DNA from: Alphaproteobacteria bacterium
GTDB taxonomy: Bacteria; Pseudomonadota; Alphaproteobacteria; Rhizobiales; Xanthobacteraceae
Direction: 5' to 3'
NCBI GenBank assembly: GCA_037200445.1
Contig: JBBCGH010000001.1
Location: forward strand, 5,654,001 to 5,718,000
Length of the DNA stretch: 64,000 nt
In this document: piece by piece, positions 20,780 to 55,487 of the stretch
Numbering within the stretch: position 1 is the stretch's first letter
How the letters are laid out: every line of letters starts with the position of its first letter
Translations under genes and position numbers: made by a program
Notes under the pieces: generated by a model
What the model was told of the DNA's origin: nothing
Databases searched by the model: none
Seen by the model: the letters and a program-made list of their open reading frames with translations, nothing else

Positions 20780-22459
20780 GTGGCTGAGCGAAGCATGAGT
20801 AGAGCGGACGACGCAGCAGCCGAGGTGTTCGATCCGGTCACGCTCGAGATTTTCTGGAGCCGCCTGATCTCGATTGCCGACGAGGCGGCCGCAGGCCTCC
20901 TGCGCACCGCCTTTTCCACGATTGTGCGCGAGTCGAACGACTACGCCACCGTGCTGATGGACCGCAACGGCAGTTCGTTGTCCGAGAACACCGGCGGCAT
21001 CGCGTCATTCTCCTGCATCCTGCCGCGCACCACCAGGACGTTCCTCGAACGCTTTCCGGCCGAGACCTGGCGGCCGGGCGATTGCGTCATCACCAACGAC
21101 CCCTGGCTTGCCACAGGCCACCTGCCGGATTTCACGTTCGTCAGTCCGATCTTTCATCACGGCGCGCTGGTCGGCTTTGCCGGCTCCATTGCGCATTCTC
21201 CTGACGTGGGCGGCGCGCTGTGGTCGGCCGACTGCCGCGAGCTGTTCGAGGAGGGGATTCGCATTCCGCCGATCCGCTTCCTGCGCGAGGGCCGGCGCAA
21301 CGACGAGTTGGTCGATATCCTGCTCTCGAACGTGCGTGTGCCGCGTCAGGTGCTGGGTGATCTCGAAGCGCAGGTGACGGCGAACGAGGTTTGCGTCCGC
21401 CGTATCGAAGAGTTTCTCGGCGATATCGGCCTCGCCGACCTGCAAGGACTAGCCGCCGCCATCCACACGCGGGCCGACGCCGCAATGCGTCGTGCCATCG
21501 CGGCGGTTCCCGAGGGCACCTATCGCGCCACGCTGGAAGCAGACGGCTTCGACGAGCAGATCACCCGGATCGAATGCAGCGTATCGGTCAACGGCGATCA
21601 CATGCACATCGATTATGCGGGCACGTCGCCGCAGATTGATCGCGGGATCAATTGCGTCTTCAACTACACGCATGCCTATTCGGTTTATCCGGTCAAATGC
21701 GCGCTCGATCCGTTCACGCCGCGCAATGAGGGTTCATACCAGGCGATCACCGTGGCCGCGCCAGAGGGCTCCATTCTCAATCCGCGATTTCCCGCTCCTG
21801 TCGGCGCGCGGCAACTAACCGGCCATCTGCTCGCGGGCGCGATCTACCGCGCGCTCGCCGATGTCATTCCCGACCGCATCATCGCGGAGAGCGGTGCTGC
21901 GCCCTCGATGCGCGCACTGTTCAGTGGGGTCGACCGCAATGGCGACCATTTCAGTCAGGTGCTGTTTGCGACCGGCGGCATGGGCGCCTCGCCACATCGC
22001 GACGGACTGCCGACGACCTCGTTTCCGACCAATGTTGGCGCCGGCAGCATTGAGGCGTTCGAAAGCGTCTCGCCGCTGGTGGTGTGGCGCAAGCAGCTGC
22101 GCCCGGATTCCGGCGGCGCTGGCCGCTTTCGCGGCGGACTCGGGCAGGAGGCGGAGATCGAAGTCCGTTCGCCGTCTTCGGTACGGCTCTCCTTGTTGTC
22201 GGACCGGCGCGATCACCCGGCGCTTGGTGTGCTCGACGGCCGCTCCGGCGCGCCTGCGCTGATCGAATTCGGTGACGGTACGCGTCCGCATCCCAAGTCT
22301 CGCACCACCATCGCGACCGGAACGCGGCTGCGCATGATCTATGCGGGCGGCGGCGGCTATGGCGATCCGACATCGCGTGACGCCGAGGCGCTCGCGCGCG
22401 ATCTGCGCGATGGCTACGTCACGCCCGAGGCCGCGCGCACGCAATACGGGGCGAAGTAG
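20780..22459 (+). CDS. hyuB: Hydantoinase B / oxoprolinase family protein
   Basis: 559 residues from GTG 20780, six bases after GGAGG at 20769-20773. FDPVTLEIFWSRL at the start, RESNDYATVLMD, a TNDPWLATGHLPD segment and the C-terminal GGGGYGDPTSRD are hallmarks of HyuB. With HyuA it forms ATP-dependent enzymes that open or carboxylate cyclic amides and ketones: N-methylhydantoinase, 5-oxoprolinase, acetone or acetophenone carboxylase. Following a polar amino-acid importer in one operon, a five-membered lactam or hydantoin substrate is plausible. Confidence 0.88.
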   Translation: MAERSMSRADDAAAEVFDPVTLEIFWSRLISIADEAAAGLLRTAFSTIVRESNDYATVLMDRNGSSLSENTGGIASFSCILPRTTRTFLERFPAETWRPGDCVITNDPWLATGHLPDFTFVSPIFHHGALVGFAGSIAHSPDVGGALWSADCRELFEEGIRIPPIRFLREGRRNDELVDILLSNVRVPRQVLGDLEAQVTANEVCVRRIEEFLGDIGLADLQGLAAAIHTRADAAMRRAIAAVPEGTYRATLEADGFDEQITRIECSVSVNGDHMHIDYAGTSPQIDRGINCVFNYTHAYSVYPVKCALDPFTPRNEGSYQAITVAAPEGSILNPRFPAPVGARQLTGHLLAGAIYRALADVIPDRIIAESGAAPSMRALFSGVDRNGDHFSQVLFATGGMGASPHRDGLPTTSFPTNVGAGSIEAFESVSPLVVWRKQLRPDSGGAGRFRGGLGQEAEIEVRSPSSVRLSLLSDRRDHPALGVLDGRSGAPALIEFGDGTRPHPKSRTTIATGTRLRMIYAGGGGYGDPTSRDAEALARDLRDGYVTPEAARTQYGAK

Positions 22460-22462
22460 GCG

Positions 22463-24556
22463 ATGACCGAACGCACGGTTCGCGTCGGCGTCGATGTCGG
22501 CGGCACATTCACCGATCTCGTGCTGCACGATCCGCGGCGCGATCTCGTCCATACCGGCAAGCTGCTCACGACGCCCGACGATCCGAGCGAAGCAATCGTT
22601 ATCGGCATCCAGCGGCTGCTGAAGGAGACGTGCCTCAACGCCTCCGAACTGCACAGCATTGTGAACGGCACCACGCTGGTTACCAACACGGTGATCGAGC
22701 GGACCGGCGCGGCGGTAGGCCTCATCACCACCGAGGGCTTCCGCGATGTGATCGAGGTCGGGCGCGAAACCCGCTACGACCTCTACGATCTGTTTCTCGA
22801 AGCGCCGCCGACCCTCGTGCCGCGCTACCGGCGGCGCGAAATCAAAGAGCGCATGGATTTCGAGGGGCAAGCCCTCGTGCCGCTCGATGAAGCCGCTGTC
22901 GCCGCCACTGCGCGCGAGATGGTCGAGCGTGATGGCGTCGAGGCGATCGCGATCTCGTTCCTGCATGCCTATCGCAATTCCGTGCATGAGCGCCGCGCCG
23001 CCGAGATCATTCGCGGCCTCTATCCGGACCTTCCGCTAACGCTTTCGTCGGAGGTCGCGCCCGAGATCCGCGAATTCGAGCGCACCAGCACGGCCTGCGC
23101 CAATGCCTACGTGCAGCCGCTGATGCGCCGCTATTTGGACCGGCTCGAGACAAAGCTCGGTGCAATTGGCTTTGCGGGCCGGCTCTACGTCATGCTGTCG
23201 GGCGGCGGCATTGCGGCCGTGCAGGAGGCGCGGGAATTCCCGATCCGACTGATCGAATCGGGGCCCGCAGCCGGTGCGATGGCGGCTTCCTTCCTGGCCC
23301 GCCTTGCCGGACTCGACCGGGTCGTCTCGTTCGACATGGGCGGGACCACGGCCAAGATGTGCCTGGTCGAGAACGGCGCACCCGATCACAAATTCGATTT
23401 CGAGGCCGGGCGGGTCCGCCGCTTCGTCAAAGGCTCCGGCTTGCCGCTCAAGGTCTCGGTCGTCGACATGATCGAGATCGGCGCGGGTGGCGGGTCGATC
23501 GCACGCGTTGAACCCTCATCCGGATTGATGAAGGTCGGTCCGCGCAGCGCGGGCGCAAAGCCCGGCCCGGTATGTTACGGCCTCGGCGGCGCCGAGCCGA
23601 CGGTGACGGATGCCGATCTTGTTCTGGGCCGGCTCAATCCAGACTATTTCCTTGGCGGCGAAATGCATCTCGACCTGAACGGCGTGCGCCGTGCATTCAA
23701 GGACGGCGTCGCGAAGGATTTGAAAATCCCCGCGATGGACTCCGCGCTCGGCGTCCAGCGCATCGTCGACGAAACCATGGCCGCCGCAACCCGGATGCAT
23801 CTCGCCGAGAAGGGCCGCGATCCGCGCCGCTACACGCTGATCGCCTTCGGCGGTGCCGGGCCGGTGCATGCCTATAATCTCGCGCGCCTGCTCAAGATGA
23901 AGCGCCTCGTCGTCCCGCTCGGCGCGGGCGTTGCGTCGGCGCTCGGATTCCTGGTGGCACCGCCCGCGACCGACATGGTGCGCAGCTATGTGGCGCGGCT
24001 CGAACGCCTCGACTGGGATCACGTCAACACGCTGTTCGCCGCCATGACCGAGGAAGGCTCGCGCCTGCTCAGCGAAGCGGGAGCCGACTTCGCCGCGATC
24101 GCGCTGCGGCCGACCGCCGATATGCGGCACGTCGGTCAGGGGTTCGAGATACCCGTGCGGCTTCCCTCGACCAAACTTGGCCCCGGCGATCTTCCGGCGA
24201 TCCGCGCGGCGTTCTTTGCCAGCTATCGGGAACGTTTCGGGCGCGTGGTCGAGGACTCGCCGGTCGAGGCGCTGAGCTGGCGTCTCGCTTGCGTTGCGCC
24301 CGGACAGGACATCCGCATCAGGCCGGCCGCCGGCGGCGCTGCCACGGCATCAAGCGCGCATCACGGAACGCGCGACGTGCTGTTCGAAGGAGTAGGGCTG
24401 CTGCAATGCGCCGTCTATGACCGCTATGCGCTTGCGCCCGGCACGACATTCGACGGCCCGGCTCTCGTCGAGGAGCGGGAGTCGACCTGCTGCATCGGGC
24501 CCGACGCGCACGTGACCGTCGATCGGTTTCTCAACCTGGTGATCGACCTGAGTTGA
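22463..24556 (+). CDS. hyuA: Hydantoinase A / oxoprolinase family protein
   Basis: 697 residues. GVDVGGTFTDLVL at about 8-20 and FDMGGTTAKMCLVE near 289 are the two phosphate-binding loops of the ASKHA ATPase fold; HSIVNGTTLVTNTVIER and FGGAGPVHAYNL are further HyuA marks. It is the ATP-using partner of HyuB, three bases upstream. Last gene of the plus-strand operon, ending seven bases before the convergent Bug gene. Confidence 0.9.
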   Translation: MTERTVRVGVDVGGTFTDLVLHDPRRDLVHTGKLLTTPDDPSEAIVIGIQRLLKETCLNASELHSIVNGTTLVTNTVIERTGAAVGLITTEGFRDVIEVGRETRYDLYDLFLEAPPTLVPRYRRREIKERMDFEGQALVPLDEAAVAATAREMVERDGVEAIAISFLHAYRNSVHERRAAEIIRGLYPDLPLTLSSEVAPEIREFERTSTACANAYVQPLMRRYLDRLETKLGAIGFAGRLYVMLSGGGIAAVQEAREFPIRLIESGPAAGAMAASFLARLAGLDRVVSFDMGGTTAKMCLVENGAPDHKFDFEAGRVRRFVKGSGLPLKVSVVDMIEIGAGGGSIARVEPSSGLMKVGPRSAGAKPGPVCYGLGGAEPTVTDADLVLGRLNPDYFLGGEMHLDLNGVRRAFKDGVAKDLKIPAMDSALGVQRIVDETMAAATRMHLAEKGRDPRRYTLIAFGGAGPVHAYNLARLLKMKRLVVPLGAGVASALGFLVAPPATDMVRSYVARLERLDWDHVNTLFAAMTEEGSRLLSEAGADFAAIALRPTADMRHVGQGFEIPVRLPSTKLGPGDLPAIRAAFFASYRERFGRVVEDSPVEALSWRLACVAPGQDIRIRPAAGGAATASSAHHGTRDVLFEGVGLLQCAVYDRYALAPGTTFDGPALVEERESTCCIGPDAHVTVDRFLNLVIDLS

Positions 24557-29521: not shown

Positions 29522-29598
29522 GGTGATTTCAGTCCTTTGTGGTTCCGTCGGATTTGCGAGATTCGATGGAGGCCACAATGGCTTGGACTGAAATCACC
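29522..29598 (+). promoter_or_regulatory. Long-range hairpin covering the transposase ribosome site and start codon
   Basis: GGTGATTTCAGTCC at 29522-29535 is the exact reverse complement of GGACTGAAATCACC at 29585-29598, which codes for transposase residues 3-7. Inside the loop TTGTGG (29537-29542) pairs with CCACAA (29573-29578). The GGAGG site (29568-29572) and the ATG lie within this structure. In transcripts entering from outside the element, the start would be masked. Confidence 0.7.
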
Positions 29599-30414
29599 CG
29601 GGCGCAGTATCGGCGCGACGGGCTGGGCTATGCAAGCGACCTGAACGATGCGGAGTGGCTTGTCCTGTCGTTCTTCCTGCCTGCACGCTGCCATGTCGGA
29701 CGTCCGCGCGAAGTCGATTTGCGGCTGGTGATCGACGCGATCCTGTATGTGCTTTCGACCGGCTGCCAATGGCGCGCACTGCCGCACGCGTTCCCGCCGC
29801 GCTCGACGGTTCAGTATTACTTCTATCTCTGGCGCGACCAGCGGCTGTGGCGGCGGATCAATCTCGCGCTGGTACGGCGAGCCCGCGAAGCGATGGGCCG
29901 CAACGCCGTTCCCTCCGCCGGCGTGATCGACAGCCAGAGCGTCAAGACCACGGAAAGCGGCGGCCCACGCGGGTTTGACGCTGCCAAGAAGGTCAAAGGA
30001 CGCAAGCGCCACATGATCACCGACACGCAGGGCTTTCCGCTCGCCGTCCTGGTGCACGCGGCCAACATCCAGGACAATCACGGTGCGGTGCCGTTGCTTC
30101 GCACGCTGCGGCAGACATTCCCCAGGCTGCGGTACGTCGTCGCCGATCGTGTCTATCGTGGACCCAAGCTGCGCAAAGCGATCGCTGCGTTCGGCCGCTG
30201 GAGGATCGAGATCGTCACGCGATCCGAGCGGATCGGCACCTTCAAACCCGAGCCCAAGCGCTGGGTGATCGAGCGTACCTTCGCCTGGTTGGGACGCAAC
30301 CGCCGTCTCGCCAAGGACTTCGAACGCACCATCGAAAGCGCCGAGGCATGGTTCCTGATCGCCTCCGTCCGACTCATCTCTCGCCGCCTCGCAAGACAGC
30401 AGGAACAAAGATAG
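29578..30414 (+). CDS. IS5-family transposase (DDE)
   Basis: 278 residues from ATG 29578, after GGAGG at 29568-29572; the frame extends 13 codons further upstream. The catalytic triad can be placed at Asp118 (VIDSQSVK), Asp190 (VVADRVYRG) and Glu232 (IERTFAWLGRNRRL), in the IS427/IS1031-like layout. Length is normal and nothing is broken, so the element may be active. It sits between the ATPase-less amino-acid transporter and an SDR gene. Confidence 0.92.
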   Translation: MAWTEITRAQYRRDGLGYASDLNDAEWLVLSFFLPARCHVGRPREVDLRLVIDAILYVLSTGCQWRALPHAFPPRSTVQYYFYLWRDQRLWRRINLALVRRAREAMGRNAVPSAGVIDSQSVKTTESGGPRGFDAAKKVKGRKRHMITDTQGFPLAVLVHAANIQDNHGAVPLLRTLRQTFPRLRYVVADRVYRGPKLRKAIAAFGRWRIEIVTRSERIGTFKPEPKRWVIERTFAWLGRNRRLAKDFERTIESAEAWFLIASVRLISRRLARQQEQR

Positions 30415-30547
30415 AGTTTTGAGTCAGACTCTCAGGACGGCTTGGTCCCAGGGCCCGTTCAGGCGCACGATCCGAGCCGGCTGTAGGGCCTTTCCCCTCC
30501 CTACGCTCCCTCGTATGACGGGGGAGGAAGTGAGGGAGAGGACTCGC

Positions 30548-31321
30548 ATGGCCTACAAGGGCTTCGATCTGACGGGCAAGGTGTCGCTGATCACCGGCGG
30601 CAATGGCGGCATCGGTTTCGGCATGGCCGATGCACTTGCAGAGGCCGGCGCCGACGTCTGCATCTGGGGCACCAACTCCAAGAAGAATGCAGACGCCGCC
30701 GAGAGGCTGAAGCGCCACGGCCGCAAGGTCCACACCCAGATCGTCGATGTCGGCGACCAGGCCCGGGTCCAGGCGGGCTTCGCCGAGACGCTGAAGGTCA
30801 TGGGCCATGTCGACAACTGCGTCGCCAACTCCGGGGTCTCGGGCCGCGGCAAGGGCTCGCTGCTGGAGATGGACTACGAGGAATGGCGTCGCGTCATGCG
30901 CGTCAATCTCGACGGCGTGTTCTTCACCTTCCAGGTCGCCACCCGCCACATGGTCCAGCGTGGCAAAGGGGGCTCGCTGGTGGCGATGGCCAGCACCGCC
31001 GCTATCGAGGGTGCAGCGCGGTCCAGCCACTACGGCGCAAGCAAGGGCGGCGTCTGCGCCATGGTGCGGGCGCTCGCCGTCGAGCTGGCGCGCTACAAGA
31101 TCACCGCCAACTCCATCCTGCCGGGCTGGATCGAGACCGAGATGACCGCCAACGCCTTCGGCAATGAGAAATTCGCCGACAACGTGATGCCGCGCATTCC
31201 CGAGCGGCGCTGGGGCGTCGGCGCCGATTTCGGGCCGATTGCGGTCTATCTGGCGAGCGGCGCCACCGGCTATACGACGGGGCGCGATTTTGTCATCGAT
31301 GGCGGCTATACGTTGTTCTAA
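30548..31321 (+). CDS. Short-chain dehydrogenase/reductase (SDR)
   Basis: 257 residues from ATG 30548, after a purine-rich GGGAGAGG. Cofactor loop TGGNGGIG at 16-23, VANSGVSG in place of the usual NNAG block, catalytic Ser149, Tyr162 and Lys166 (HYGASKGG), and a C-terminal DGGYTLF close. A classical SDR oxidising or reducing a hydroxy/keto group; the substrate is not visible. It stands alone just after the IS element, which could supply read-through transcription. Confidence 0.88.
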   Translation: MAYKGFDLTGKVSLITGGNGGIGFGMADALAEAGADVCIWGTNSKKNADAAERLKRHGRKVHTQIVDVGDQARVQAGFAETLKVMGHVDNCVANSGVSGRGKGSLLEMDYEEWRRVMRVNLDGVFFTFQVATRHMVQRGKGGSLVAMASTAAIEGAARSSHYGASKGGVCAMVRALAVELARYKITANSILPGWIETEMTANAFGNEKFADNVMPRIPERRWGVGADFGPIAVYLASGATGYTTGRDFVIDGGYTLF

Positions 31322-31568: not shown

Positions 31569-32798
31569 CTACGTTGGCGCGTGGATAAGGGGTAGCGAGC
31601 GCGTGAAGCTACGGCGGCCGCGCTTGATACCCAGGAGCGGCTGCGCGACTTCCGCAATCGCCATCGCCGGATCCATTGAATCGAGCACGACGAAATCGGC
31701 CGGATTGCCGACAGCGATCCCGTAGTCAGCGAGATTCATCAGCCGCGCAGGCCACGTCGTGACGAGGTCAAAACATGCGTTGAGTTCGTGCCGCGTCCCA
31801 GCTTGCGCGATGTTGGCGTAGAGGTTGGCCATCCTCACAAGCGAGCAATCACCATACGGTGTAAATGGATTGAGGACATTATTCGTTGCCAACGAGCAGG
31901 TGACGCCGCACGCCGCGAGCTTGTGGGCGGCCGTAACCCCGCGCGGAACATTGAGGTCATGCGCGCGTCCCATCAGGAACAGGTCGGTCGCGGGCAACAC
32001 CGTCACCGCGACCCCCGAATCCGCGAGTCGTTGTCCGATTTCGGCGAAACGCGGGGCCGTTAACGCCGAAAGCTTCGTGACATGGCCAACCGCGATCCGC
32101 CCGCCGTATCCATAAGCCGTCGTTTGCCGGCAGACCTCATCGAGATCCATGCGCGATGCATCCAAATCGAAGTCGAGATGAAAATCGATGTCGAGATCGA
32201 AGCGCCGCGCTATGTCGAAAATGCGCGCAATTTGCCCATGCGGATTCGTGTCGGTGTAGGGGCAGCCGCCGATCAGGTCGGCGCCCTGTTCGCACGCCGC
32301 GACAAGAAGCTCCTCCGTGCCGGGATCGTTGAGCAGGCCTTCCTGCGGGAACGCACAGATTTCAAGATCGATGGCCCAAGCATAGTCGCGCTTGAGCCGG
32401 CGCACTGCCTTGAAACCCCTCAGGCCAACGCGAGGATCAACTTCGACGTGAGCGCGCATGCGCATCGTGCCTTGCACGATCGCCTTCTCCAGAGTGCGCC
32501 GCCCGCGTGCGTAGATATCGTCTTCCGTGAAGCCGCTTTTGGCGGCTGCGACCAGGGCGATCGCCTCTTGTAGCGTTCCTTCGCTGAGCTGGCATCGATC
32601 CAGAATGCACGACTTGTCGAGATGGATGTGGGTGTCGACGAACCCCGGCGCAACAAGCCGGCCCTCGGCATCCTCTTCCGGCGCGTCGGACAAAATCGTT
32701 GGGGCGATCTCGGCGATTTTGCCTTTTGCGACGCCGACGTCGAACGTCTCCTCGTCGTGCCCGGCGAGGCGCGCTCTGCGGAGGACAGAATCGAGCAT
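31569..32798 (-). CDS. Cytosine-deaminase-like amidohydrolase with altered active site
   Basis: 409 residues, the size of CodA. Metal ligands His57 and His59 (DTHIHLDKS), His207 and His239 (GHVTKL) are spaced as in E. coli CodA (61, 63, 214, 246). The position of CodA Asp313 is Asn306 (ATNNVLNPF), its neighbour Asp314 is Asn307, and catalytic Glu217 is Phe210 (HLDFDLD). So it is not a standard cytosine deaminase; it may hydrolyse another cyclic amide or ureide, or use a different mechanism. Last gene of the minus-strand arm, separated by three bases from the fused Liv protein, whose substrate it likely processes. Confidence 0.8.
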   Translation of the reverse strand: MLDSVLRRARLAGHDEETFDVGVAKGKIAEIAPTILSDAPEEDAEGRLVAPGFVDTHIHLDKSCILDRCQLSEGTLQEAIALVAAAKSGFTEDDIYARGRRTLEKAIVQGTMRMRAHVEVDPRVGLRGFKAVRRLKRDYAWAIDLEICAFPQEGLLNDPGTEELLVAACEQGADLIGGCPYTDTNPHGQIARIFDIARRFDLDIDFHLDFDLDASRMDLDEVCRQTTAYGYGGRIAVGHVTKLSALTAPRFAEIGQRLADSGVAVTVLPATDLFLMGRAHDLNVPRGVTAAHKLAACGVTCSLATNNVLNPFTPYGDCSLVRMANLYANIAQAGTRHELNACFDLVTTWPARLMNLADYGIAVGNPADFVVLDSMDPAMAIAEVAQPLLGIKRGRRSFTRSLPLIHAPT

Positions 32799-32801
32799 GA
32801 T

Positions 32802-35300
32802 CTATTGCGCCGCTTCGGCACGGCCGAGATAGGCGGCCTCGAGCGCGGGGTCGTCCGCGAGCGCCTCGGCGGTATCCTCGCGGACGATACGGCCCGACTC
32901 CAGGACGTATCCCCGGTCCGCGACAGTCAGCGCCAGCGCCGCCATCTGATCGACCAGAAGGATCGTCATGCCGTCGTCGCGCAACTGCGCGAGGGTGGCG
33001 AACAGTTCGCTGATGATAGTCGGTGCGAGGCCAAGCGACGGCTCGTCGAGAAGGAGGATGCGCGGTTTCGCGATCAAGCCGCGTGCGATTGCCAGCATCT
33101 GCTGCTCGCCGCCGGAGAGGAGTCCCGCCCGGCTCGAGAGCCGTTCGCACAGCCGCGGAAATTGCGCCAGCAGCGCGGCAATCTCGGCGCCATGATCGAG
33201 GTTGCTGCGCGTATACGCGCCGAGCATGATGTTATCGATCACGCTCAACTCAGGGAAAACCTGTCGGCCTTCCGGCACCAGCGCGACGCCGCTCGCAGCG
33301 ATCCGATGCGCGGAGAGATGATCCACCGGCTTGTCGTCGAGCACGATCGCGCCCGTGACGGGACGCAGCAGACCGGTCACGGCGCGCATCGCGGTCGATT
33401 TGCCGGCGCCATTCGCACCGAGCAGCGCCACCATCTCGCCGGGCCTGACTTCGAATGAGACTTCGTCGAGCACAGGCGCCATGCCGTAGCCAGCGCTCAG
33501 TCGCAGGCATGACAGAATCGCATCGCGCGGACCGCTCCACGCCATAGCGCGCGGGCGAACCCGCATCTCGCCATCGCCGAGGTAGGCCTTGAGCACGCGT
33601 GGATCGCGTCGAACTTCGGCCGGCGCCCCTGAGGCGATGACTGCGCCTGCATCGAGTACGACGATATGGTCCGAAATGCCCATGACGAGCGTCATGTCGT
33701 GCTCGACGAGAATGACGGCGACTCCGAGATCGGCGATGCGTCGGATCAACTTGCTCAACTCCGTCTTGTCGGCGCGCGTTAGACCGGCCGCCGGTTCATC
33801 GAGAAGCAAGACCCGAGGATGTGTTGCGAGCGCGCGGGCGATCTCGACCAGACGCCGGTCCACATGCGGCAGATCCTGTGCAGGTGTCGCGAGCGCGCCC
33901 TGATAGCCGACGAATGACAACAGAGCCTCGGCGTTGCCGCGATCGCGGATCGTCGCAGCGCGTCCGAGCGGATTGCCGAGCCGCCCCCGGCGGGCCGCGA
34001 CGATCACGTTGTCGAGCACGGTCATCGCGCCGAACAGCTGTGTGGTTTGATACGTGCGCGCGATGCCGGCGCGCGCAATGCGCCAGGCCGGCGCGCCGGC
34101 AAGCTCCGCGTCGCCGAGCCTGACGCTACCTGCGTCGGGCCGGTAGAATCCGCCGATCATGTTCAGAACGGTCGTTTTGCCGGCCCCGTTTGGTCCAATC
34201 ACGCTGGTAATTCGCCCGGGCGGCGCCGCGAAGCTCACATCGGTAGCGGCCTTGATGCCGCCGAACGAAAGACCGATGCCGGATACCGACAGCGGTGGCG
34301 CATTCTCGACCGCGAGGAATTGTCCAATGTCGGAATCGCTGGCCGCCATATCCGCCGCTTTGGCGCGTCGGAAATAGCGCGCGATCGTCCCGATCACTCC
34401 CTCGGGCGCGAGCCACAACACAACGAGCAGCAGAACGCCGACGAAAAGCAGGCGATATTCGGCGAGTCCCGAGAGCAACTCCGGAATGAGGACGGTCACG
34501 ACGGCTCCAACCACTGGACCGAATACAAAGCCGGAGCCGCCGACGATGACGGCGAGCAGAAACAGGATGGATTGCGAGAACGGGAACGAATCCGGAGCGA
34601 CGAACATCATGAGCGGCGCGAAGATCGCACCCGCAAGTCCGGCGAACAACGCGGAGATCGCGAAGGCCGCTGTCTTGACGCTGACAGGATTGAGCCCGAC
34701 CGAGCGCGCCGCGACCTCACTCTCACGCACCGCCACCATCGCCATGCCCCATGCGCTCACGGCGAGCCGATGGAACACATAGAGCGAAAGCGCTGCGAGC
34801 AGGATCGCCATCAGCGCCATCTCGCGTTCGGCGAAACTGTGTCCGCCAATTGCCGGCGGTACGAGGCCCATCAGGCCGTTCTGGCCGCCGGTCAAATCCT
34901 TCCACTCGATTGTGCCGTGCTGGACGATGAAGGCAAACGCAATGGTGACCATCGCGAGATAGGGTCCCGTGACGCGCAGCGCAGGGAGCGCGAGGGCGGC
35001 ACCGATCCCGCCTGCCACGAGGCCGGCGATCGGAAACGCAAGCCAGAACCCGACGCCCTTCAGCGTCAGGATCGCTGCCGTGTAGGCGCCGATGGAATAG
35101 AAACCGACGTGCCCAAGCGAGACCTGCCCGGCAAGACCGAGCAGGACGTTCAGCCCCACGCCGACGACCGCGGTGAGCGCGACGAGCGCCAGAATGAAGT
35201 GCGTGTAGCCTTCGGAGATGAACACCAGGGCGACGACCGCTGCTGTCAGCGCCAGGATCGAAAGCGTCATTGTCGAGGGCGCGGCCGCTTTCATGGTCAT
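32802..35300 (-). CDS. Fused LivM-LivG-LivF ABC transporter protein
   Basis: 832 residues in one frame from ATG 35300. Residues 1-310 are a LivM permease (LLGLAGQVSLGHVGFYSIGAY at 53-73; coupling loop VRESEVAARSVGLNP). Residues 336-577 are a LivG ATPase: Walker A GPNGAGKT at 369-376, Walker B LLLDEP at 498-503. Residues 595-828 are LivF: Walker A GANGAGKS at 628-635, signature LSGGEQQ at 728-734, Walker B LLLDEP at 749-754. The LivG signature is degenerate (LPHVDRR). The frame stays open upstream to 36209, but that part is a shadow of LivH. The ATG overlaps the LivH stop by four bases. With LivH and the receptor it makes a complete importer. Confidence 0.9.
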   Translation of the reverse strand: MTMKAAAPSTMTLSILALTAAVVALVFISEGYTHFILALVALTAVVGVGLNVLLGLAGQVSLGHVGFYSIGAYTAAILTLKGVGFWLAFPIAGLVAGGIGAALALPALRVTGPYLAMVTIAFAFIVQHGTIEWKDLTGGQNGLMGLVPPAIGGHSFAEREMALMAILLAALSLYVFHRLAVSAWGMAMVAVRESEVAARSVGLNPVSVKTAAFAISALFAGLAGAIFAPLMMFVAPDSFPFSQSILFLLAVIVGGSGFVFGPVVGAVVTVLIPELLSGLAEYRLLFVGVLLLVVLWLAPEGVIGTIARYFRRAKAADMAASDSDIGQFLAVENAPPLSVSGIGLSFGGIKAATDVSFAAPPGRITSVIGPNGAGKTTVLNMIGGFYRPDAGSVRLGDAELAGAPAWRIARAGIARTYQTTQLFGAMTVLDNVIVAARRGRLGNPLGRAATIRDRGNAEALLSFVGYQGALATPAQDLPHVDRRLVEIARALATHPRVLLLDEPAAGLTRADKTELSKLIRRIADLGVAVILVEHDMTLVMGISDHIVVLDAGAVIASGAPAEVRRDPRVLKAYLGDGEMRVRPRAMAWSGPRDAILSCLRLSAGYGMAPVLDEVSFEVRPGEMVALLGANGAGKSTAMRAVTGLLRPVTGAIVLDDKPVDHLSAHRIAASGVALVPEGRQVFPELSVIDNIMLGAYTRSNLDHGAEIAALLAQFPRLCERLSSRAGLLSGGEQQMLAIARGLIAKPRILLLDEPSLGLAPTIISELFATLAQLRDDGMTILLVDQMAALALTVADRGYVLESGRIVREDTAEALADDPALEAAYLGRAEAAQ

Positions 35301-36169
35301 ACTTTTTTCGCCGCCGCGCGGCCAAGCAGCCCGTTCGGCATGACGGCGAGCGCAAGGATGACGACCGCGAATACGATGATCTGCGTGTAGCTCGAGCCAA
35401 TGAACGCGGTGACCGAAGCCTCGATCAACCCATAGAGCAGCCCTGCCAGCATCACCCCCGACGCAGAGGTGATGCCGCCGAGAATTGCGACAGCAAACGC
35501 CTTGATGCCGAACAGCGTGCCCATCTCGGAATGAATGCTGAATAGCGGCGCAATCAGCATGCCGGCAAGCCCGGCGAGCGCGGTCGAAAGCGCAAACGAG
35601 AACGCGATCGCTGACCGTACGTTGATTCCCATCAGGCGCGCCGCATCCTTGTTCTGGACTACGGCGAGAAGCGCCTTGCCGAGACGCGTGCGGTGGAACG
35701 CGATCTGCAGCGCGACCGCAATCCCGACGCCGACGACCGGAATGATCAACTGCAGCGGAAACACGCCTGCGCCGAAAAGATCGATCGGCTTTTGCGCGAG
35801 GAACGATGGAAAAGCGCGCGGCTCCTTGCCGAACGTGAACAGCACGATATTGTCGAGCACGATCCCGCCCGCAACCGTCGCCATCAGCCAGGCATTCGAG
35901 CCGCGCTCTGCGAACGGCCGTACCAGCGCGCGCTCGACCAGAAGGCCGAACAGAGCGCAGAGCGCAAGCGACATCGCCACCGCGAGCGGCATCGGCCAAC
36001 CGAGCTTGATCCCGAACGTGTAGCCGAGCACAGCGCCGAGCATCATCGAGGAACCCTGCGCGAAGTTGACCGTGTTGGAGACGACGTAGGTGACGTGGAA
36101 GCCGAGTGCGATAAGTCCATACATGCTCCCGACCGCGAGGCCGGAGACGATCGCCGAAATCAAAAGCAT
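35297..36169 (-). CDS. Branched-chain amino-acid-type ABC permease, LivH-like
   Basis: 290 residues, mostly hydrophobic. ALGFHVTYVVSNTVNFAQGSSMMLGAVLG and NKDAARLMGINV (coupling loop) identify LivH. It pairs with the permease part of the fused protein encoded next. Sixty-nine bases separate it from the receptor gene. Confidence 0.9.
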   Translation of the reverse strand: MLLISAIVSGLAVGSMYGLIALGFHVTYVVSNTVNFAQGSSMMLGAVLGYTFGIKLGWPMPLAVAMSLALCALFGLLVERALVRPFAERGSNAWLMATVAGGIVLDNIVLFTFGKEPRAFPSFLAQKPIDLFGAGVFPLQLIIPVVGVGIAVALQIAFHRTRLGKALLAVVQNKDAARLMGINVRSAIAFSFALSTALAGLAGMLIAPLFSIHSEMGTLFGIKAFAVAILGGITSASGVMLAGLLYGLIEASVTAFIGSSYTQIIVFAVVILALAVMPNGLLGRAAAKKV

Positions 36170-36238
36170 CGTTTACCCGGATGAGACGCAGCGGGACGCA
36201 GGCCGACAAGCCCGCGCCCCGCCGCCTTGCGTCGAAGT

Positions 36239-37423
36239 CTAGTTCGTCAGCGGAAGAATCTCGCCGTCCTTGAAGTGGGTGAAGATGTAGTCGTCAGATG
36301 TCAGCGCGTCGTGGTTCGTCGGCGTGAACGGCTTGTCGTAGGTCTTGATCAGCCCCTCGTATTTCGGAAGCGCGTAGAGCGCCTCGCGGACCTTCGGGCC
36401 TTCGGTCGAGCCTGCCTTGGCGATGGCAAGCGTCATCAAATTCATCGCGTCGTACGCATTGGCGATCCCCACGGCGGGGGTCACGTCAGCGAGGCTCTTG
36501 ATCTCCGGATACTTCTTCTTCAGCGCTGCAAGCACGCTTTCGGCCTTCGGCGAAAGTTTTCCCGAGAAGCTGAAAGTCTGAATGAAGTGGACCCGCTCAC
36601 TGCTCGGCCCCGCAAGCTCGCTGAAGCGCCCGCCGGCCGGACCCCAATGCGAGACGATCGGAACGCTCCAGCCCATGCGGTCGAGTGATTTGACCACCTG
36701 TGACGAAGGCGCCACGTTTGCCACCAGGAACAGCACGTCCGCACCGGCTTCCTTCAGCCGGGTCAACTGTGGCACGACGTCGACATCGGCGTCTTGGAAT
36801 TTCTCGATGCCCGCGTAGGGCATGTTCTTCTCAGCGAGCGCCTCCTTGAGGCCCTTTTCGTTCGACTCGCCCCAGGGATTGTTGATCAGGATCATCCCAG
36901 GCTTCTTGGTCGCATATTTCTTGGCCGCGTAGTCGATCATGGCCTTGTCGACCAGCACATCGACGGCCGAGACCCGGAACGCATAGTTCTCGGCCGCGCC
37001 GTTGCGGGTGATCGGTGTGCCGGCCGCCCAGACGCCCATGAACGGCACCTTGTTCTGGTTGGCGAACGGCACGATCGCGATCGACACCGGCGTGTCGAGG
37101 CCGCCGAACAAGCCGACAACCTTCTCGCGCTGCACCAGCTCGCGGGCCGCCACGGCTCCCTTGGCGGGATTGCTTTCATCGTCCCGCACCAGAAGTTCAA
37201 CCTTCTTGCCGAGCACACCGCCTTTGGCGTTGATCTCGTCGATGGCGATCGAGAGTCCGCGAACGATCGCCTCGCCGGACTTCGCCGATTGGCCGGACAT
37301 TGCAGCGACGAGGCCGAGCTTTATGGTGTCCTGCGCGAAGGCTGGTGCCGTGAGGGCGGTCATGGCGGCGGCAGCCAGAAGCAGGCGGCGCGTGAGTTGC
37401 GGAAGGCTGTTTCGCACGGACAT
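36239..37423 (-). CDS. Branched-chain amino-acid-type ABC substrate-binding protein
   Basis: 394 residues. Signal region TRRLLLAAAAMTALTAPAFAQ, then IKLGLVAAMSGQSAKSGEAIVRG, a Peripla_BP_6 receptor. The ribosome site AGAGAGG precedes ATG 37423. First gene of the minus arm of the divergent cluster; a palindrome and a direct repeat lie in its leader. The adjoining enzymes suggest an amide or ureide as substrate. Confidence 0.88.
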   Translation of the reverse strand: MSVRNSLPQLTRRLLLAAAAMTALTAPAFAQDTIKLGLVAAMSGQSAKSGEAIVRGLSIAIDEINAKGGVLGKKVELLVRDDESNPAKGAVAARELVQREKVVGLFGGLDTPVSIAIVPFANQNKVPFMGVWAAGTPITRNGAAENYAFRVSAVDVLVDKAMIDYAAKKYATKKPGMILINNPWGESNEKGLKEALAEKNMPYAGIEKFQDADVDVVPQLTRLKEAGADVLFLVANVAPSSQVVKSLDRMGWSVPIVSHWGPAGGRFSELAGPSSERVHFIQTFSFSGKLSPKAESVLAALKKKYPEIKSLADVTPAVGIANAYDAMNLMTLAIAKAGSTEGPKVREALYALPKYEGLIKTYDKPFTPTNHDALTSDDYIFTHFKDGEILPLTN

Positions 37424-37600: not shown

Positions 37601-37696
37601 GGGCTCTCTTAAGGGGTACGCGCCGACGAGAAAAATGCATGGTAGCGAGCCTGAGATTTCCTCCGCCCGACCGAACAAGAGAGGATGAAGACGAGC

Positions 37697-38134
37697 ATGT
37701 CCGCCGCAGCCGCCAAAGCCGCCGTGATTGCCCCCTCCGAAGAGACCGGCGCAGCAGCCGACATCGTCGAGAAATTCCTCGTCGCCTCCATGGTGCCGGA
37801 CCCTGAAACCGCCGCGCGCTACATTGCAGAGCCGCTCAAGCTCACCTTCACGGGAGGCCGCAAGTTCTCGCATCCGCGCGAGAGCACGGCGTTCAACGCC
37901 AAGCGCTACAAGTGGGTGAAGAAGAAGATGGAGCGCTCGGATGTGGCGCCCGCCGACGGAGAGACAATCGTCTACAACATCGGCACGCTCTATGGCGAAT
38001 GGCCGGACGGCACACCGTTCGAAGGCAACCGCTACGTTGACCGCTTCGTCGTGCGCGGCGGCAAGATCGTGCAAATGGACGTGTGGAACGACAGCGCCGA
38101 GCGTCTGCTTGCACGCAATGGCATCGATGCCTGA
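37697..38134 (+). CDS. NTF2-like / SnoaL-like protein
   Basis: About 145 residues from ATG 37697 (MSAAAAKAAV); ATG 37685 has its GAGG site directly against it and seems less likely. The pattern VEKFLVASMVPDPETAARYIAEPLKLTFTG, the central RYKWVKKKMER helix and VDRFVVRGGKIVQMDVWNDSAERLL fit the cone-shaped NTF2 fold, which serves as isomerase, lyase, hydrolase or ligand-binding protein. First gene of the plus arm, 35 bases before the FdrA-C gene. Its exact role is unknown. Confidence 0.65.
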   Translation: MSAAAAKAAVIAPSEETGAAADIVEKFLVASMVPDPETAARYIAEPLKLTFTGGRKFSHPRESTAFNAKRYKWVKKKMERSDVAPADGETIVYNIGTLYGEWPDGTPFEGNRYVDRFVVRGGKIVQMDVWNDSAERLLARNGIDA

Positions 38135-38169: not shown

Positions 38170-38361
38170 ATGGTCGAAAAGGATCGCGACATTTCGCGAG
38201 ATTTGTTCGCTGCGCCGCCGCGCGTGATCAACATCGGACTTGAGATATTCGCAACGGATCTTGCCAGCCAGGACGCAAAGGTTGCGCACGTGCGCTGGAG
38301 TCCGCCAGCGGGCGGGAATTCTCACCTTGCGGGCCTTCTCGAAAAGCTCCAAGGCAAATGA
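38170..38361 (+). CDS. Small protein equal to the FdrA C-terminal domain
   Basis: 63 residues: LFAAPPRVINIGLEIFATDL, then VAHVRWSPPAGGNSHLAGLLEKLQ. As I recall it, E. coli FdrA ends in LLENVAVINIGLRSFALEL and VVHYQWSPVAGGNKKLARLLERLQ, which matches along its full length. The FdrA gene of this cluster (39628-41106) stops short of this domain, so the domain is encoded separately, two genes earlier. The start ATG 38170 has only a weak ribosome site. The stop TGA overlaps an ATG (38358) of an eight-codon frame that ends across the next gene's TTG start. Confidence 0.75.
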   Translation: MVEKDRDISRDLFAAPPRVINIGLEIFATDLASQDAKVAHVRWSPPAGGNSHLAGLLEKLQGK

Positions 38362-38380
38362 AACCCCGAGAAGGCCGGAC

Positions 38381-39631
38381 TTGAGAACAATCGATCAAGC
38401 CAATCAAGAAGCGCTGCGACGTATTCTCGCCGGCGATCCCGTCTTGGTCGACGTGATCCCGGCCTCCGAGGCCATTCCGGACTTGGCGGATCGCATGATC
38501 CTTCATGCCGGACCGCCGATCGGCTGGGATCGGATGTGCGGTCCCATGCGCGGGGCGGTCACAGGTATTGCGGTGTTCGAAGGCTGGGCAAAGGATCTCG
38601 ACGATGCGGCGTCGAGCGCGGCCGCCGGCTCCTTTGTTTTCCACCCCAATCATCACTTCGGGGCGGTTGGTCCGATGACCGGCATGACGACCAGAAGCCA
38701 GCCGCTCATGGTGGTCGAGAACAAGACTTACGGCAATCGTGCCTATTGCGCGATCAATGAGGGCCTCGGCAAGGTGATGCGGTTCGGCGGCAATGACGCC
38801 GAAGTCTTGAACCGCTTGCACTGGATCCGCGAGACTCTGGGACCCGCACTGGGACGCGCGATTCGTGAATCAGGCGGCATTCCGCTGAAGCCGTTGCTTG
38901 CGCGCGGACTGACCATGGGTGACGAGATGCATCAGCGGAACGTCGCGTGCTCCAGTCTGCTGCTGCGTCAACTCGCGCCGCTGCTGGCGCGGACATCCAA
39001 AGACGGCGGCGAGCTTGTCACCTGCCTGGACTTCATCGGCCACAACGATCAGTTCTTTCTCAATATCGCGATGGCGATGGGAAAGGCACTCACCGACCCG
39101 GCACGCGACGTCACGGCGTCGTCTATGGTCACGGCCATGTGCCGCAACGGCACTGACTTCGGCCTTCGCGTCTCGGGCACGGGCGACCGTTGGTTCACCG
39201 CACCCGTTGAGATGCCGACCGGAATCTACTTTCCGGGCTTCAGCGAAAGGGACGCCAATCCGGACATGGGGGACTCGGCCATCGTGGAGACCATCGGCCT
39301 CGGCGCTTTCGCGATGGCCGCGGCGCCGGCGGTGGTCGGATATATCGGAGCGGGGCGCGCCTCCGAGGCGGCGGCGTTCACGCGATCGATGGCGGAAATT
39401 ACCGTCGGGCCCAATCCCGCATGGGTCATTCCGGCGATGGATTTTGCGGGTGTGCCGACCGGCATCGATATCCGTCTCGTCGTCGAGACCGGCCTCGCTC
39501 CAATCATCAACACCGGGATCGCGCACCGAGAGCCTGGGCTAGGTCAGGTCGGCGCCGGCATCGTGAAGGCGCCGCTCAAATGCTTCCAGGACGCGCTTGT
39601 GGCTTTTGCCGAGACGATAGGCGTTAAATGA
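38381..39631 (+). CDS. DUF1116 protein (AllG/YlbE-like), putative carbamoyltransferase subunit
   Basis: 416 residues from TTG 38381, six bases after AGAAGG at 38369-38374; E. coli YlbE has about 419. ANQEALRRILAGDPVLVDVIPA, GPPIGWDRMCGPMRGAVTG, MTRSQPLMVVENKT-type and RNGTDFGLRVSGTG blocks mark DUF1116. In E. coli the FdrA, YlbE and YlbF proteins (renamed AllF, AllG, AllH) were reported to make up oxamate carbamoyltransferase of allantoin breakdown. The 3' end overlaps fdrA by four bases. An upstream in-frame ATG would add an atypical Arg-rich leader. Confidence 0.82.
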   Translation: MRTIDQANQEALRRILAGDPVLVDVIPASEAIPDLADRMILHAGPPIGWDRMCGPMRGAVTGIAVFEGWAKDLDDAASSAAAGSFVFHPNHHFGAVGPMTGMTTRSQPLMVVENKTYGNRAYCAINEGLGKVMRFGGNDAEVLNRLHWIRETLGPALGRAIRESGGIPLKPLLARGLTMGDEMHQRNVACSSLLLRQLAPLLARTSKDGGELVTCLDFIGHNDQFFLNIAMAMGKALTDPARDVTASSMVTAMCRNGTDFGLRVSGTGDRWFTAPVEMPTGIYFPGFSERDANPDMGDSAIVETIGLGAFAMAAAPAVVGYIGAGRASEAAAFTRSMAEITVGPNPAWVIPAMDFAGVPTGIDIRLVVETGLAPIINTGIAHREPGLGQVGAGIVKAPLKCFQDALVAFAETIGVK

Positions 39632-41106
39632 GCGTGATCCTCAACGAGGTTCGCCGCGCAACCTATCTCGACTCGATCGTCCTCATGCGCATCTCCCGGC
39701 AGATCGCAGCCCTGCCCGGAGTCGAGGAAGCCGGCCTGATCATCGGAACGCCGGCGAATAAAGAGATTCTCCGCGACGCCAACATTCTCGGCCCGGAGGG
39801 CAGCGCTGCCGATCCGGGCGACCTGATCATTGCACTCAGGACGAGCGATGTGCGCACCGCGGAAGCCGCGCTCGCAGAGGCGAAGCGGCTGCTCGATCAA
39901 CCGAGCGCGCTGGGTACGACGGCGGCGATCGAGTCGTCGCGCACCGTTCGCGCCGCCATCCAGAGGCTGCCCGAGGCCAACCTGGCGCTGATCTCGGTTC
40001 CTGGAGACTTCGCGGTCGCCGAAGCGCGCAAGGCGATGGAGCTTGGGCTCCACGTCATGATTTTTTCCGACAACGTGCCGATCGCGGACGAGGCGACGCT
40101 CAAGCGCACGGCGCGCGACCGCGGCCTCTTCGTGATGGGACCGGATTGCGGAACGGCGATCATCGGTGGCGTGCCTTTGGGTTTCGCAAATGTTGTTCCA
40201 ACCGGAGACATCGGCATCATCGGCGCATCCGGCACCGGAATTCAGGAAGTGTCCTGCCTGATCGCGCGCGCCGGCCGCGGCATCAGCCACGCGATTGGGA
40301 CGGGGGGACGGGATCTCAAAGCCGAGGTCGGCGCAATCACGACTCTGATGGCAATCGATGCGCTCGACGCCGACGATCGTACGAAGCATGTTGTGCTAAT
40401 CTCCAAGCCCCCCGCCGCTTCGGTCGCCCGGGCGGTGCTTGAGCGCGTCGCGAAGAGCTCGAAGCCGTTCACGATTTGCTTTCTAGGCGCGACAGACTTC
40501 GCGCTGCCCGCAAATGCGCGCTCCGCCGGGACACTCAAGGCGACGGCCGAATTGGTTGTCGGTGGAATAGGAGCAGTTCCGGCGAACCCGCGATTGTTGC
40601 AATCGAATGGACGCAAGCGGGTGCGCGGCCTGTTCGCAGGCGGAACACTCTGCAGCGAAGCTCAAATCATATTCCGGCAAGCCGGGCTTCCCGTGATGTC
40701 CAACGTGCCCGTACCGGGCGCCTCCCCGGTGACTGGCACGTATGACGGTCATGTCCTGATCGATCTCGGCGATGACGAGTTCACGCGTGGACGCCCGCAT
40801 CCGATGTTCGAACCAGGCGTGCGCGATGCTCCGTTGGCCGAAGCAATTGCCGATCCCAATGTGGGAGTCGTTCTGCTGGATGTCGTGCTCGGCTATGGCG
40901 GCCATCCCGACCCCGCGGGCCATCTGGTTGCGCGCCTTGCGAACCGGGATGGCCGCCCGGTCATTGTGGCTTCCGTCACCGGCACTGACGCAGATCCGCA
41001 GCCGCGTGAAACCCAGATACAGAAGCTTGTCGACGCGGAGGTGATTGTTGCCGGCTCCAATGCGGACGCGGCCGAAGCGGCAATTGCGGCGCTTAGCGCT
41101 CACTGA
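39628..41106 (+). CDS. fdrA: FdrA-like protein (AllF), lacking its C-terminal domain
   Basis: 492 residues against about 555 in E. coli. DSIVLMRISRQIA near the start, MGTP-type IIGTPANKEILRD, VMGPDCGTAIIGGVPLGFANV, GIIGASGTGIQEVSCLIARAG with ISHAIGTGGRDL, and VLLDVVLGYGGHPDPAGHL are FdrA marks; the core resembles succinyl-CoA synthetase alpha. It ends after AAEAAIAALSAH, where E. coli FdrA still has about 50 residues; those are the 63-residue product at 38170-38361. It belongs to the putative carbamoyl-transfer complex with DUF1116 and DUF2877. Confidence 0.85.
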   Translation: MSVILNEVRRATYLDSIVLMRISRQIAALPGVEEAGLIIGTPANKEILRDANILGPEGSAADPGDLIIALRTSDVRTAEAALAEAKRLLDQPSALGTTAAIESSRTVRAAIQRLPEANLALISVPGDFAVAEARKAMELGLHVMIFSDNVPIADEATLKRTARDRGLFVMGPDCGTAIIGGVPLGFANVVPTGDIGIIGASGTGIQEVSCLIARAGRGISHAIGTGGRDLKAEVGAITTLMAIDALDADDRTKHVVLISKPPAASVARAVLERVAKSSKPFTICFLGATDFALPANARSAGTLKATAELVVGGIGAVPANPRLLQSNGRKRVRGLFAGGTLCSEAQIIFRQAGLPVMSNVPVPGASPVTGTYDGHVLIDLGDDEFTRGRPHPMFEPGVRDAPLAEAIADPNVGVVLLDVVLGYGGHPDPAGHLVARLANRDGRPVIVASVTGTDADPQPRETQIQKLVDAEVIVAGSNADAAEAAIAALSAH

Positions 41107-41120
41107 GGCATGGTCAATCG

Positions 41121-42113
41121 ATGAGGGTCAGCAACAGCGAAAAGCAACACCGGGACACGGCGACGCGCGATCACAGGTCGGCCGGCGGTCCGCTTGTCGT
41201 CGTCCCGATCCTCCGGTCAGGCGTTCTGGCGCGCCAATTCTGCGAACGCGTCGTGTTCGCGAATGTCGAAGCTGTTTTCGAACGCTGCCTCTATCTGCGT
41301 TCCGGCGACGATTTCATTTGTATCGGCGACCCCGAAATCGGCAATGGTCCGATGACGCTGATCGGAAATCTTCGAGTTTTGCCGACTCTCAGGTCCTTGG
41401 CGGGACAACTCTCGTTCGTGTGTGACGAGCATATCACGATCGGTGACTCGGTTCGGTTTACCTTCGATCACAGCGAACTTTGGCGCCCCCTGGGTTGGCC
41501 TAAGTGCGCGTCGCCTGAGCGCCTGATCGATATCTGCGCCGGTTTGATATCGCGTGCCGCAACCGGTGCGCCACAAGAAGGCATTGCACGCTACGTCGCC
41601 AGCAGAATTGAGACACCCGCGCGTCAGCAGCCGCTGACGCGCGTCGCTCGGCCGCGCATCACGCGTTTCGAACACTGGCTGTCAGACTTAGTTGAAGGCA
41701 AGCACACTCCGGCTGCTGTCTCCCGCGAGGCCGTTCAAGGCTTGATCGGGCTTGGCCCCGGGCTGACCCCATCGGGGGATGACTTTCTCGTCGGCGTACT
41801 GTCGGTTCTCGATGCTCTGGGTGAAAGTGAGCCGCAGACGGCGATGGCCCGTGCAATTGTGGACGCGTTGCCGGGATTGACGACCTCATTGAGCGCTTGT
41901 TTCTTGCGAGCGGCAGCGGCAGGGCACTTTGGCGAGCACCTTCACCAAGCCGTTTCATCGGTCATTACCGGAGACGTCGATGCGGCAATCGCAATCGCTG
42001 CAGAAATCGGTCACAGCTCCGGATGGGACATCATGGCCGGCATCTTGATCACGCTTCGGATTGCCGCCGCGGTGAAGGTGCCTCAGCGACTCACACCTTG
42101 GGCGTGGTCTTGA
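41121..42113 (+). CDS. DUF2877 protein (AllH/YlbF-like), putative carbamoyltransferase subunit
   Basis: 330 residues. The C-terminal half holds the family signature GLIGLGPGLTPSGDDFLVGVLSVLDAL, and later SSGWDIMAGILITLRIA. The N-terminal 25 residues are charged and variable, so a later start is possible. Third member of the AllFGH-like set, 14 bases after fdrA. Nothing of the operon follows: the intergenic repeat copy C begins 43 bases later, and no carbamate kinase is found. Confidence 0.82.
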   Translation: MRVSNSEKQHRDTATRDHRSAGGPLVVVPILRSGVLARQFCERVVFANVEAVFERCLYLRSGDDFICIGDPEIGNGPMTLIGNLRVLPTLRSLAGQLSFVCDEHITIGDSVRFTFDHSELWRPLGWPKCASPERLIDICAGLISRAATGAPQEGIARYVASRIETPARQQPLTRVARPRITRFEHWLSDLVEGKHTPAAVSREAVQGLIGLGPGLTPSGDDFLVGVLSVLDALGESEPQTAMARAIVDALPGLTTSLSACFLRAAAAGHFGEHLHQAVSSVITGDVDAAIAIAAEIGHSSGWDIMAGILITLRIAAAVKVPQRLTPWAWS

Positions 42114-55449: not shown

Positions 55450-55487
55450 GTTACTTCTTCCTCCGGCCGTTTTTCCTTTTCTTACGG

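Follow-up and report, generated by a model that had tools for sequence, protein, structure and literature searches.

The aspartate that follows strand 8 of the barrel guides annotation and mechanism in the amidohydrolase superfamily, and is called highly conserved there in the available part of PMC4407906. In the Escherichia coli cytosine deaminase CodA (PDB 1k6w, 3o7u), an Asp deprotonates water, a His relays the proton and a Glu protonates the ring nitrogen, according to the accessible text of PMC12828455. The closest solved lysine-type relative of the protein described here is AtzC, the N-isopropylammelide isopropylaminohydrolase of pADP-1 (PDB 4cqb, 2qt3). The zinc of AtzC is held by three His residues and Asp303, and malonate contacts Lys65, Gln160, His219 and Asn304. 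The kcat on ammelide is 26 s−1 for the wild type, 90 s−1 for D303N, 36 s−1 for D303A and 17 s−1 for H219A (Table 2 of PMC4577212), and no activity was detected for H249A. His249 figures in the carbonic-anhydrase-like mechanism that the authors prefer (all from the accessible sections of PMC4577212).

A second set of described systems concerns oxamic transcarbamylase. E. coli obtains oxalurate from allantoin through AllB, AllC, AllE and AllD, and its allFGHK operon encodes the transcarbamylase. AllFGH, which converts oxalurate to carbamoyl phosphate and oxamate, had no assigned genes until 2024 (PMC11326118, in the portion available). In another E. coli cluster, yahEFGIJ, the CodA-cluster amidohydrolase YahJ lies beside AllH-, AllF-, AllG- and carbamate-kinase-like genes. 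The run from yahE to yahJ in E. coli K-12 (L184) suggests a second transcarbamylase pathway in that organism.

Here we describe an amidohydrolase gene that lies near homologues of AllF, AllG and AllH in a 64,000-nucleotide stretch of alphaproteobacterial DNA (hereafter the window) and that encodes asparagine in place of the strand 8 aspartate. A literature search, with most subscription papers outside its reach, found no publication attributable to the clade to which this protein belongs.

Active site and predicted fold

The gene is an intact frame on the minus strand, with an ATG, 409 codons and a stop (Table 1); the initial annotation had called the frame intact and had left out the strand. 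The product scores above the Pfam cut-offs for PF07969 and PF01979. Its best NCBIfam match is an amidohydrolase model (253.8 bits against a cut-off of 408), and the cytosine deaminase models, with cut-offs of 403 to 483 bits, give at most 222 (best 221.9 against 438). Judged by sequence, it is a CodA/AtzC-type amidohydrolase of 409 residues. Sequence and model give it the (β/α)8 barrel of the superfamily, the HxH motif of strand 1 and the His residues of strands 5 and 6, with Asn306 where the Asp after strand 8 would stand. We treat that Asp as a hallmark of the superfamily and not as its definition, and the protein's place in it, as a divergent branch, is based solely on homology and fold.

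Alignment with CodA (the E. coli protein from NC_000913; PDB numbers are RefSeq numbers minus 1) pairs His61, His63, Gln156, His214 and His246 of CodA with His57, His59, Gln152, His207 and His239, and Glu217, Asp313 and Asp314 with Phe210, Asn306 and Asn307. The initial annotation had proposed the last three pairings, and with them a change of both the proton shuttle and a metal ligand; all of this is borne out. The spacings that it gave, 32 residues from 207 to 239 and 67 from 239 to 306, are correct, and the phmmer alignment has no gap between His207 and Asn306 against the CodA chains. Two further switches, absent from that annotation, accompany Asn306: an Asp-to-Asn change at CodA Asp317 (Asn310) and an Asn-to-Asp change at CodA Asn279 (Asp272). 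CodA Val152, Phe316, Asp317, Trp319 and Tyr320 are replaced by Cys, Leu, Asn, Phe and Thr, and overall identity to CodA is 28%. Because the catalytic acids Glu217 and Asp313 are replaced by Phe210 and Asn306, and because the cytosine deaminase models score far below their cut-offs, we do not class the protein as a cytosine deaminase. Plasmid genes 55–57% identical to it are annotated as cytosine deaminase or amidohydrolase family protein, and the former name would mislead.

An AlphaFold2 model built from 57 sequences (the alignment took 56 of 80 relatives) has a pLDDT of 93.3 and a pTM of 0.92. VIA-align places CodA first (3o7u, Z 55.1, 2.0 Å over 406 residues; Z 54–55 for CodA entries) and AtzC slightly lower (5akq, Z 52.9, 1.7 Å over 387 residues), followed by imidazolonepropionase at Z 38. 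A sequence search of the PDB found no solved structure closer than CodA and AtzC, and Foldseek and VIA rank the same entries first among the families that they list. As the model superposes on both enzymes, the residue pairing made from sequence is fairly safe. In the model, Asp272 lies in a helical turn after strand 7, beside the position of CodA Val278, which is among the active-site differences listed in the AtzC paper (PMC4577212, available part). Asp272 and Asp209 are invariant acids near the barrel mouth.

The likeness to AtzC, at about 27% identity, extends to the three His ligands and to His249, Lys65, Gln160 and Asn304, which correspond to His239, Lys62, Gln152 and Asn307. The two differ at Asp303 (Asn306), Asp307 (Asn310), His219 (Asp209), Trp309 (Phe312) and Asp127 (Glu119), and AtzC has an alignment gap where the window protein has Asp272. 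His219 of AtzC stands in the Asp209 column and takes the place of CodA Glu217. At the ligand position the window protein appears to be, in effect, a natural D303N variant of AtzC. With Asn306, Asp209 and Phe312 in place of the Asp303 ligand, His219 and Trp309, we do not class it as AtzC, yet it perhaps works like AtzC. Because the D303N, D303A and H219A variants of AtzC are active and H249A is not, ordinary hydrolysis by a metal hydroxide is compatible with an Asn in the ligand's place. Molinate hydrolase was considered as a precedent for Asn at the strand 8 ligand and dropped, since its Asn sits in the strand 1 HxH motif (PMC4407906, available part).

A clade with asparagine after strand 8

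Three samples of relatives were used. The first, from genome contigs, comprises the best 80 of 424 relatives, fetched with six patterns, one of them DFHLDFDL and none containing Asn306. The second, fetched without DFHLDFDL, covers 142 genomes of the class, 61 relatives, 299 of the phylum and 99 of one family, in which selected places were read. The third holds 11 of 60 listed plasmid matches, picked by eye to span identities, together with CodA and AtzC. The 175-row set omits four repeats (copies L142, L153, L160 and L161), and residue counts were made after removal of three more near-duplicates above 98.5% identity (L102, L105 and L174), on 172 rows, 118 with Asn306 and Asn307 (the NN clade) and 54 with Asp. 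Short matches from the window's own genome (L005–L008) were left out of the alignments.

Asn306, Asn307, Asn310, Asp272, Thr271, Thr313, Lys62, His57, His59, His207, Asp209 and His239 each occur in all 118 sampled clade rows, and Gln152 in 117. Among the 54 outside relatives positions 306 and 310 are invariably Asp, and Asp272 occurs in none (35 Asn, 16 gaps, 2 Ser, 1 Ala). Position 210 is Phe in 110 of the clade rows (otherwise Leu 3, Ser 2, Met 2, Val 1) and Glu in 41 of the outside rows (otherwise Asp 11, Val 1, Gln 1). The Phe210 count is biased in the best-80 sample because DFHLDFDL was among the fetch patterns; in clade rows found without it, Phe210 stands at 30 of 37. Of the HLDFDLD and TNNV motifs named in the initial annotation, His207, Asp209, Asn306 and Asn307 are invariant in the clade rows and Phe210 is less strict. 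A change of CodA Asp314 to Asn was rejected as diagnostic of the clade, since Asn stands there in 22 of the 54 outside relatives, AtzC with its native Asn304 included. An assembly error or frameshift behind Asn306 was likewise rejected, as the same state is common to 118 rows.

The loss of both catalytic acids, Glu217 and Asp313, is what one might expect of a non-catalytic relative, for example a ligand sensor. We regard this as very unlikely, given the four His residues and Gln152 conserved as above, a gene run with transporters and catabolic genes, and the finding that neither acid's counterpart is needed in AtzC (PMC4577212, accessible sections). We read the window protein as a working enzyme that would use an AtzC-like, histidine-based mechanism. 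The initial annotation had pointed to a subfamily with another reaction: the distinct subfamily with a fixed altered site stands, but a different reaction is not implied by these residues, because the AtzC mutants are active.

A 139-row tree, from a quick search under a PMSF mixture model, separates the clade from all other rows at a single branch (SH-aLRT 100). The 175-row tree does so too, with support of 91; the NN row that branches deepest in it, L169, sits on a long branch. At the clade border, identity to the window protein steps down from 47% through 38% to 34%; L169, the 38% row, is a deep member with switched residues at positions 210, 272, 306 and 310, but has Asp119, Lys317 and Gln322. 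Of the 142 genomes in the class sample, 10 carry clade genes, at 11 places in all (identity of at least 50%). From these sequences, the active-site switch is fixed in the clade and probably arose once. As it is a single change on the tree, statistics cannot demonstrate a mutual dependence of Asp272, Asn306 and the other linked changes.

That single origin bears on another explanation, in which Asp272 or Asp209 has moved in as a ligand or base and the metal site is chemically canonical. Asp272 separates the clade from its outside relatives completely and is modelled in the turn after strand 7, beside the active-site position of CodA Val278 (PMC4577212, available part), and in the Asp209 column AtzC has the His219 that replaces CodA Glu217. 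Against this, with one evolutionary event the linkage of Asp272 may be hitchhiking, and Asp209 is present in CodA too and hence is not new. We consider such a relocation doubtful but plausible, and compatible with several of the other readings.

A second NN-type amidohydrolase is found in the window's own genome, outside the window (L002/L153). It is 50% identical to the window protein, has Ser210 and Asn317, and is neighboured by taurine-type ABC genes, another amidohydrolase and hydantoinase A and B genes.

Gene neighbourhoods of the clade

The amidohydrolase ATG lies 3 nt past the stop of the LivMGF (ABC ATPase) frame. That frame is listed as 32802–36209; its front is read-through over LivH, and we place its start near 35300. 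LivM, LivG and LivF joined in one frame (about the last 830 residues), as also in L142 and L182, look like a true fusion of ABC importer components. All three AllFGH subunit families (PF06545, NF004760 and PF11392) are found above their cut-offs in the window. AllG is 52.5% identical to E. coli AllG and 46% to YahG, and AllF is equally near E. coli AllF (40.6%) and YahF (40.3%). The small protein encoded before AllG is possibly a component of the same pathway.

Table 1 Coordinates, strand and basis of the features of the window discussed here
Feature	Position	Strand	Basis
NN-type amidohydrolase gene	31569..32798	−	Intact ORF, 409 aa; Pfam Amidohydro_3 114.7 bits
Codons N306-N-V-L-N310, Asn at CodA Asp313/Asp314/Asp317	31869..31883	−	Alignment, clade counts
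Codon Asp272, gained acid (CodA Asn279)	31983..31985	−	118/118 clade rows, 0/54 outside
Codon His239, proposed general base (AtzC His249, CodA His246)	32082..32084	−	Alignment, clade counts
Codons H207-L-D-F210	32169..32180	−	Metal ligand His207, invariant Asp209, Phe210 at CodA Glu217 position
Codons H57-x-H59, strand 1 metal ligands	32622..32630	−	118/118 clade rows
LivM-LivG-LivF single frame (permease and two ATPases)	32802..35300	−	ORF list, Pfam; similar frames in L047, L142, L182
LivH-type permease	35297..36169	−	Pfam BPD_transp_2
Periplasmic substrate-binding protein	36239..37423	−	Peripla_BP_6; closest solved are putative Leu/Ile/Val-binding proteins
Small protein, divergent from binding protein	37685..38134	+	NTF2-like by eye; no Pfam match at 1e-5
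AllG, oxamate carbamoyltransferase subunit (start uncertain)	38240..39631	+	PF06545, 299 bits against cut-off 27
AllF (FdrA), oxamate carbamoyltransferase subunit	39628..41106	+	NF004760, 490 bits against 433
AllH, oxamate carbamoyltransferase subunit	41121..42113	+	PF11392, 83 bits against 25

The window as a whole is dense in importers and hydrolases. Hydantoinase B and A genes (PF02538, PF01968) at 20780–24556 on the plus strand follow what appears to be a polar amino acid-type ABC importer, and may form a second ureide or oxoproline locus. Two more amidohydrolases, of the Amidohydro_2 and Amidohydro_3 types, lie at 52370–53458 (+) and 53785–55512 (−). An apparent IS5-type transposase at 29539–30414 (+), roughly 1.1 kb away from where the amidohydrolase gene ends, adjoins an SDR-family gene at 30419–31321.

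Neighbours were counted for the best 80 out of 424 relatives; their flanks reach 8 kb at most, and some are far shorter. Within this set LivG/F genes lie near the NN gene in 30 of 80, LivH in 27, the binding protein in 25, a GntR gene in 33 and a homologue of the small protein in 31. A taurine-type binding protein is found in 18, a second amidohydrolase of TRZ/ATZ type in 13 and a PRK08310-type amidase in 10, in each of these 10 directly downstream; AllG with AllF is found in 7, with AllG directly downstream in 5. The second amidohydrolase was left unnamed after one representative reached only 132 bits against the 8-oxoguanine deaminase cut-off of 532. A 939-residue frame in G187 was rejected as a gene fusion and is read as GC-rich read-through, since the L181 match covers only residues 523–921 and the rest has no match to the query set. 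The taurine-type binding protein, second amidohydrolase and amidase among these differing neighbours suggest that the clade may serve several substrates, and the two importer types near clade genes likewise suggest more than one.

For the AllG and AllF count, 71 of 81 rows have sufficient flank. The two genes lie near the NN gene in 8 of these 71 members, the window included, with at least three changes on the tree, and 63 have no AllFGH gene in the flank. AllG occurs in 17 of the 142 sampled alphaproteobacterial genomes; in the two that also have an NN gene (G000 and G079) the two genes are at most 6 kb apart. None of 12 more distant places (below 40% identity, E below 1e-20) in AllG-bearing genomes, most of them in contigs, is near AllG. 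In L010 the order on one strand is binding protein, LivH, LivMGF, amidohydrolase, AllG, AllF, AllH, and in L182 it is binding protein, LivMGF, amidohydrolase, amidase, AllG, AllF, carbamate kinase, AllH. L082 and L084 have, also on one strand, amidohydrolase, AllG, AllF, carbamate kinase, AllH and a gamma-glutamyltransferase-family protein. The best solved match of the last is to chains of 5hft, which we take to be the oxamate amidohydrolase HpxW, at 290 and 261 bits in L084 (217 for the next entry) and at 332 and 262 bits in L082 (273 for the next entry). A gamma-glutamyltransferase-family protein also follows the deep member L169 (L183), where an HpxW-like identity is less clear (2nlz 220 bits; 5hft chains 216 and 180).

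These neighbourhoods bear on whether the substrate is a ureide at all. A metal hydrolase of a linear amide, carbamate, ester or lactone would fit importers of branched-chain-amino-acid and taurine type and varied neighbours, which suit many small substrates, and the amidohydrolase superfamily is promiscuous. Repeated adjacency to genes of carbamoyl and amide chemistry, namely AllFGH, carbamate kinase, the PRK08310-type amidase and the HpxW-like protein, speaks against this, and we consider a linear substrate with no tie to ureides unlikely.

YahJ offers a comparison for the linkage. It is 25% identical to the window protein, the Asp ligand is retained in its Klebsiella homologue (L100) and the gene order of the cluster is different. 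As YahJ is outside the NN clade and linked to the same gene set, linkage to AllFGH does not explain the Asn. In our analysis yahEFGIJ supports the idea of a pathway, and not a special role of Asn.

A candidate ring-opening reaction

Our leading reading, held tentatively, is that the window protein is a competent mononuclear amidohydrolase of the CodA/AtzC type, whose substrate, a small cyclic ureide or imide, would enter through the ABC transporter encoded ahead of it and be opened to a ureido acid. His57, His59 and His207 would hold one divalent metal, and Asn306 would take the place of the fourth, carboxylate ligand or leave that place to water. His239 would deprotonate the metal-bound water, as proposed for AtzC His249 in the carbonic-anhydrase-like scheme. 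The substrate would present a planar carbonyl face to Gln152, Lys62 and Asn307, whose counterparts in AtzC hold malonate. Since Phe occupies the Glu217 position, a CodA-type proton relay to a ring nitrogen would be missing, and cleavage of a ring amide would seem more natural than heteroaryl deamination.

Deamination or dealkylamination of a small N-heterocycle, of the cytosine, isocytosine or triazine type, with AtzC-like chemistry and a functionally neutral Asn306, nevertheless has arguments in its favour. The clade descends from the CodA cluster, and the enzymes known from that cluster take an amine off a C=N carbon (PMC12828455, accessible text), AtzC works without Asp303 and without His219 (PMC4577212, available part), Gln152 is kept almost throughout, and the TRZ/ATZ-type second amidohydrolase recurs in the best-80 sample. 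In every clade row, however, Phe, Leu, Ser, Met or Val stands in place of the Glu with which CodA protonates the ring nitrogen, the five further CodA positions from Val152 to Tyr320 are replaced in the window protein and the cytosine deaminase models score low. We hold this reaction to be doubtful, though worth weighing.

If a cyclic ureide or imide is opened, the next enzyme to act on the ureido acid would be either an amidase or the AllFGH transcarbamylase, joined by carbamate kinase where that enzyme occurs, and oxamate, where formed, would go to an HpxW-like oxamate amidohydrolase. No carbamate kinase match was found in the genome of the window or in that of L010, and the closest HpxW-like gene of the window's genome (55% identity) is unlinked, more than 600 kb away.

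Parabanic acid is a one-step hydrolytic source of oxalurate. By the title of a 1965 study, it reportedly induces oxamic transcarbamylase in a Streptococcus. In eight tested genomes that carry AllG together with an NN gene, neither AllB nor AllD exceeds its curated cut-off (the genome of L073, also AllG-positive, was left out). The E. coli control exceeds both cut-offs, as the only control to do so for AllD and as one of two for AllB. Conversion of parabanate to oxalurate is favoured by the sub-threshold AllB and AllD scores, the one-step chemistry and the title on induction. As a counterpoint to a ureide substrate, weaker AllD-like and AllB-like matches occur in all eight genomes (best 221 of 496 and 305 of 358 bits), and PuuE allantoinase or ureidoglycine aminotransferase could provide other routes to oxalurate. 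The substrate is perhaps parabanate and the product oxalurate, a specific assignment that we consider improbable as it stands. The same low probability attaches to the full proposal, in which the NN clade dropped the strand 8 Asp and the proton-shuttle Glu, uses histidine-driven hydrolysis and is the missing parabanate-type ring-opener, which makes oxalurate for oxamic transcarbamylase in bacteria lacking the allantoin route, with oxalate, ammonia and ATP as the end products of the operon.

A clade that lacks the strand 8 Asp and keeps the histidines bears on whether the carboxylate is necessary in this superfamily, and the AtzC mutants suggest that it is dispensable. For the organism, a soil bacterium, the arrangement would mean that the cell feeds on small ring-shaped nitrogen compounds opened by the NN amidohydrolase. 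The NN operons point to a substrate class, and could fill the step upstream of AllFGH in genomes where AllB and AllD are not recognised.
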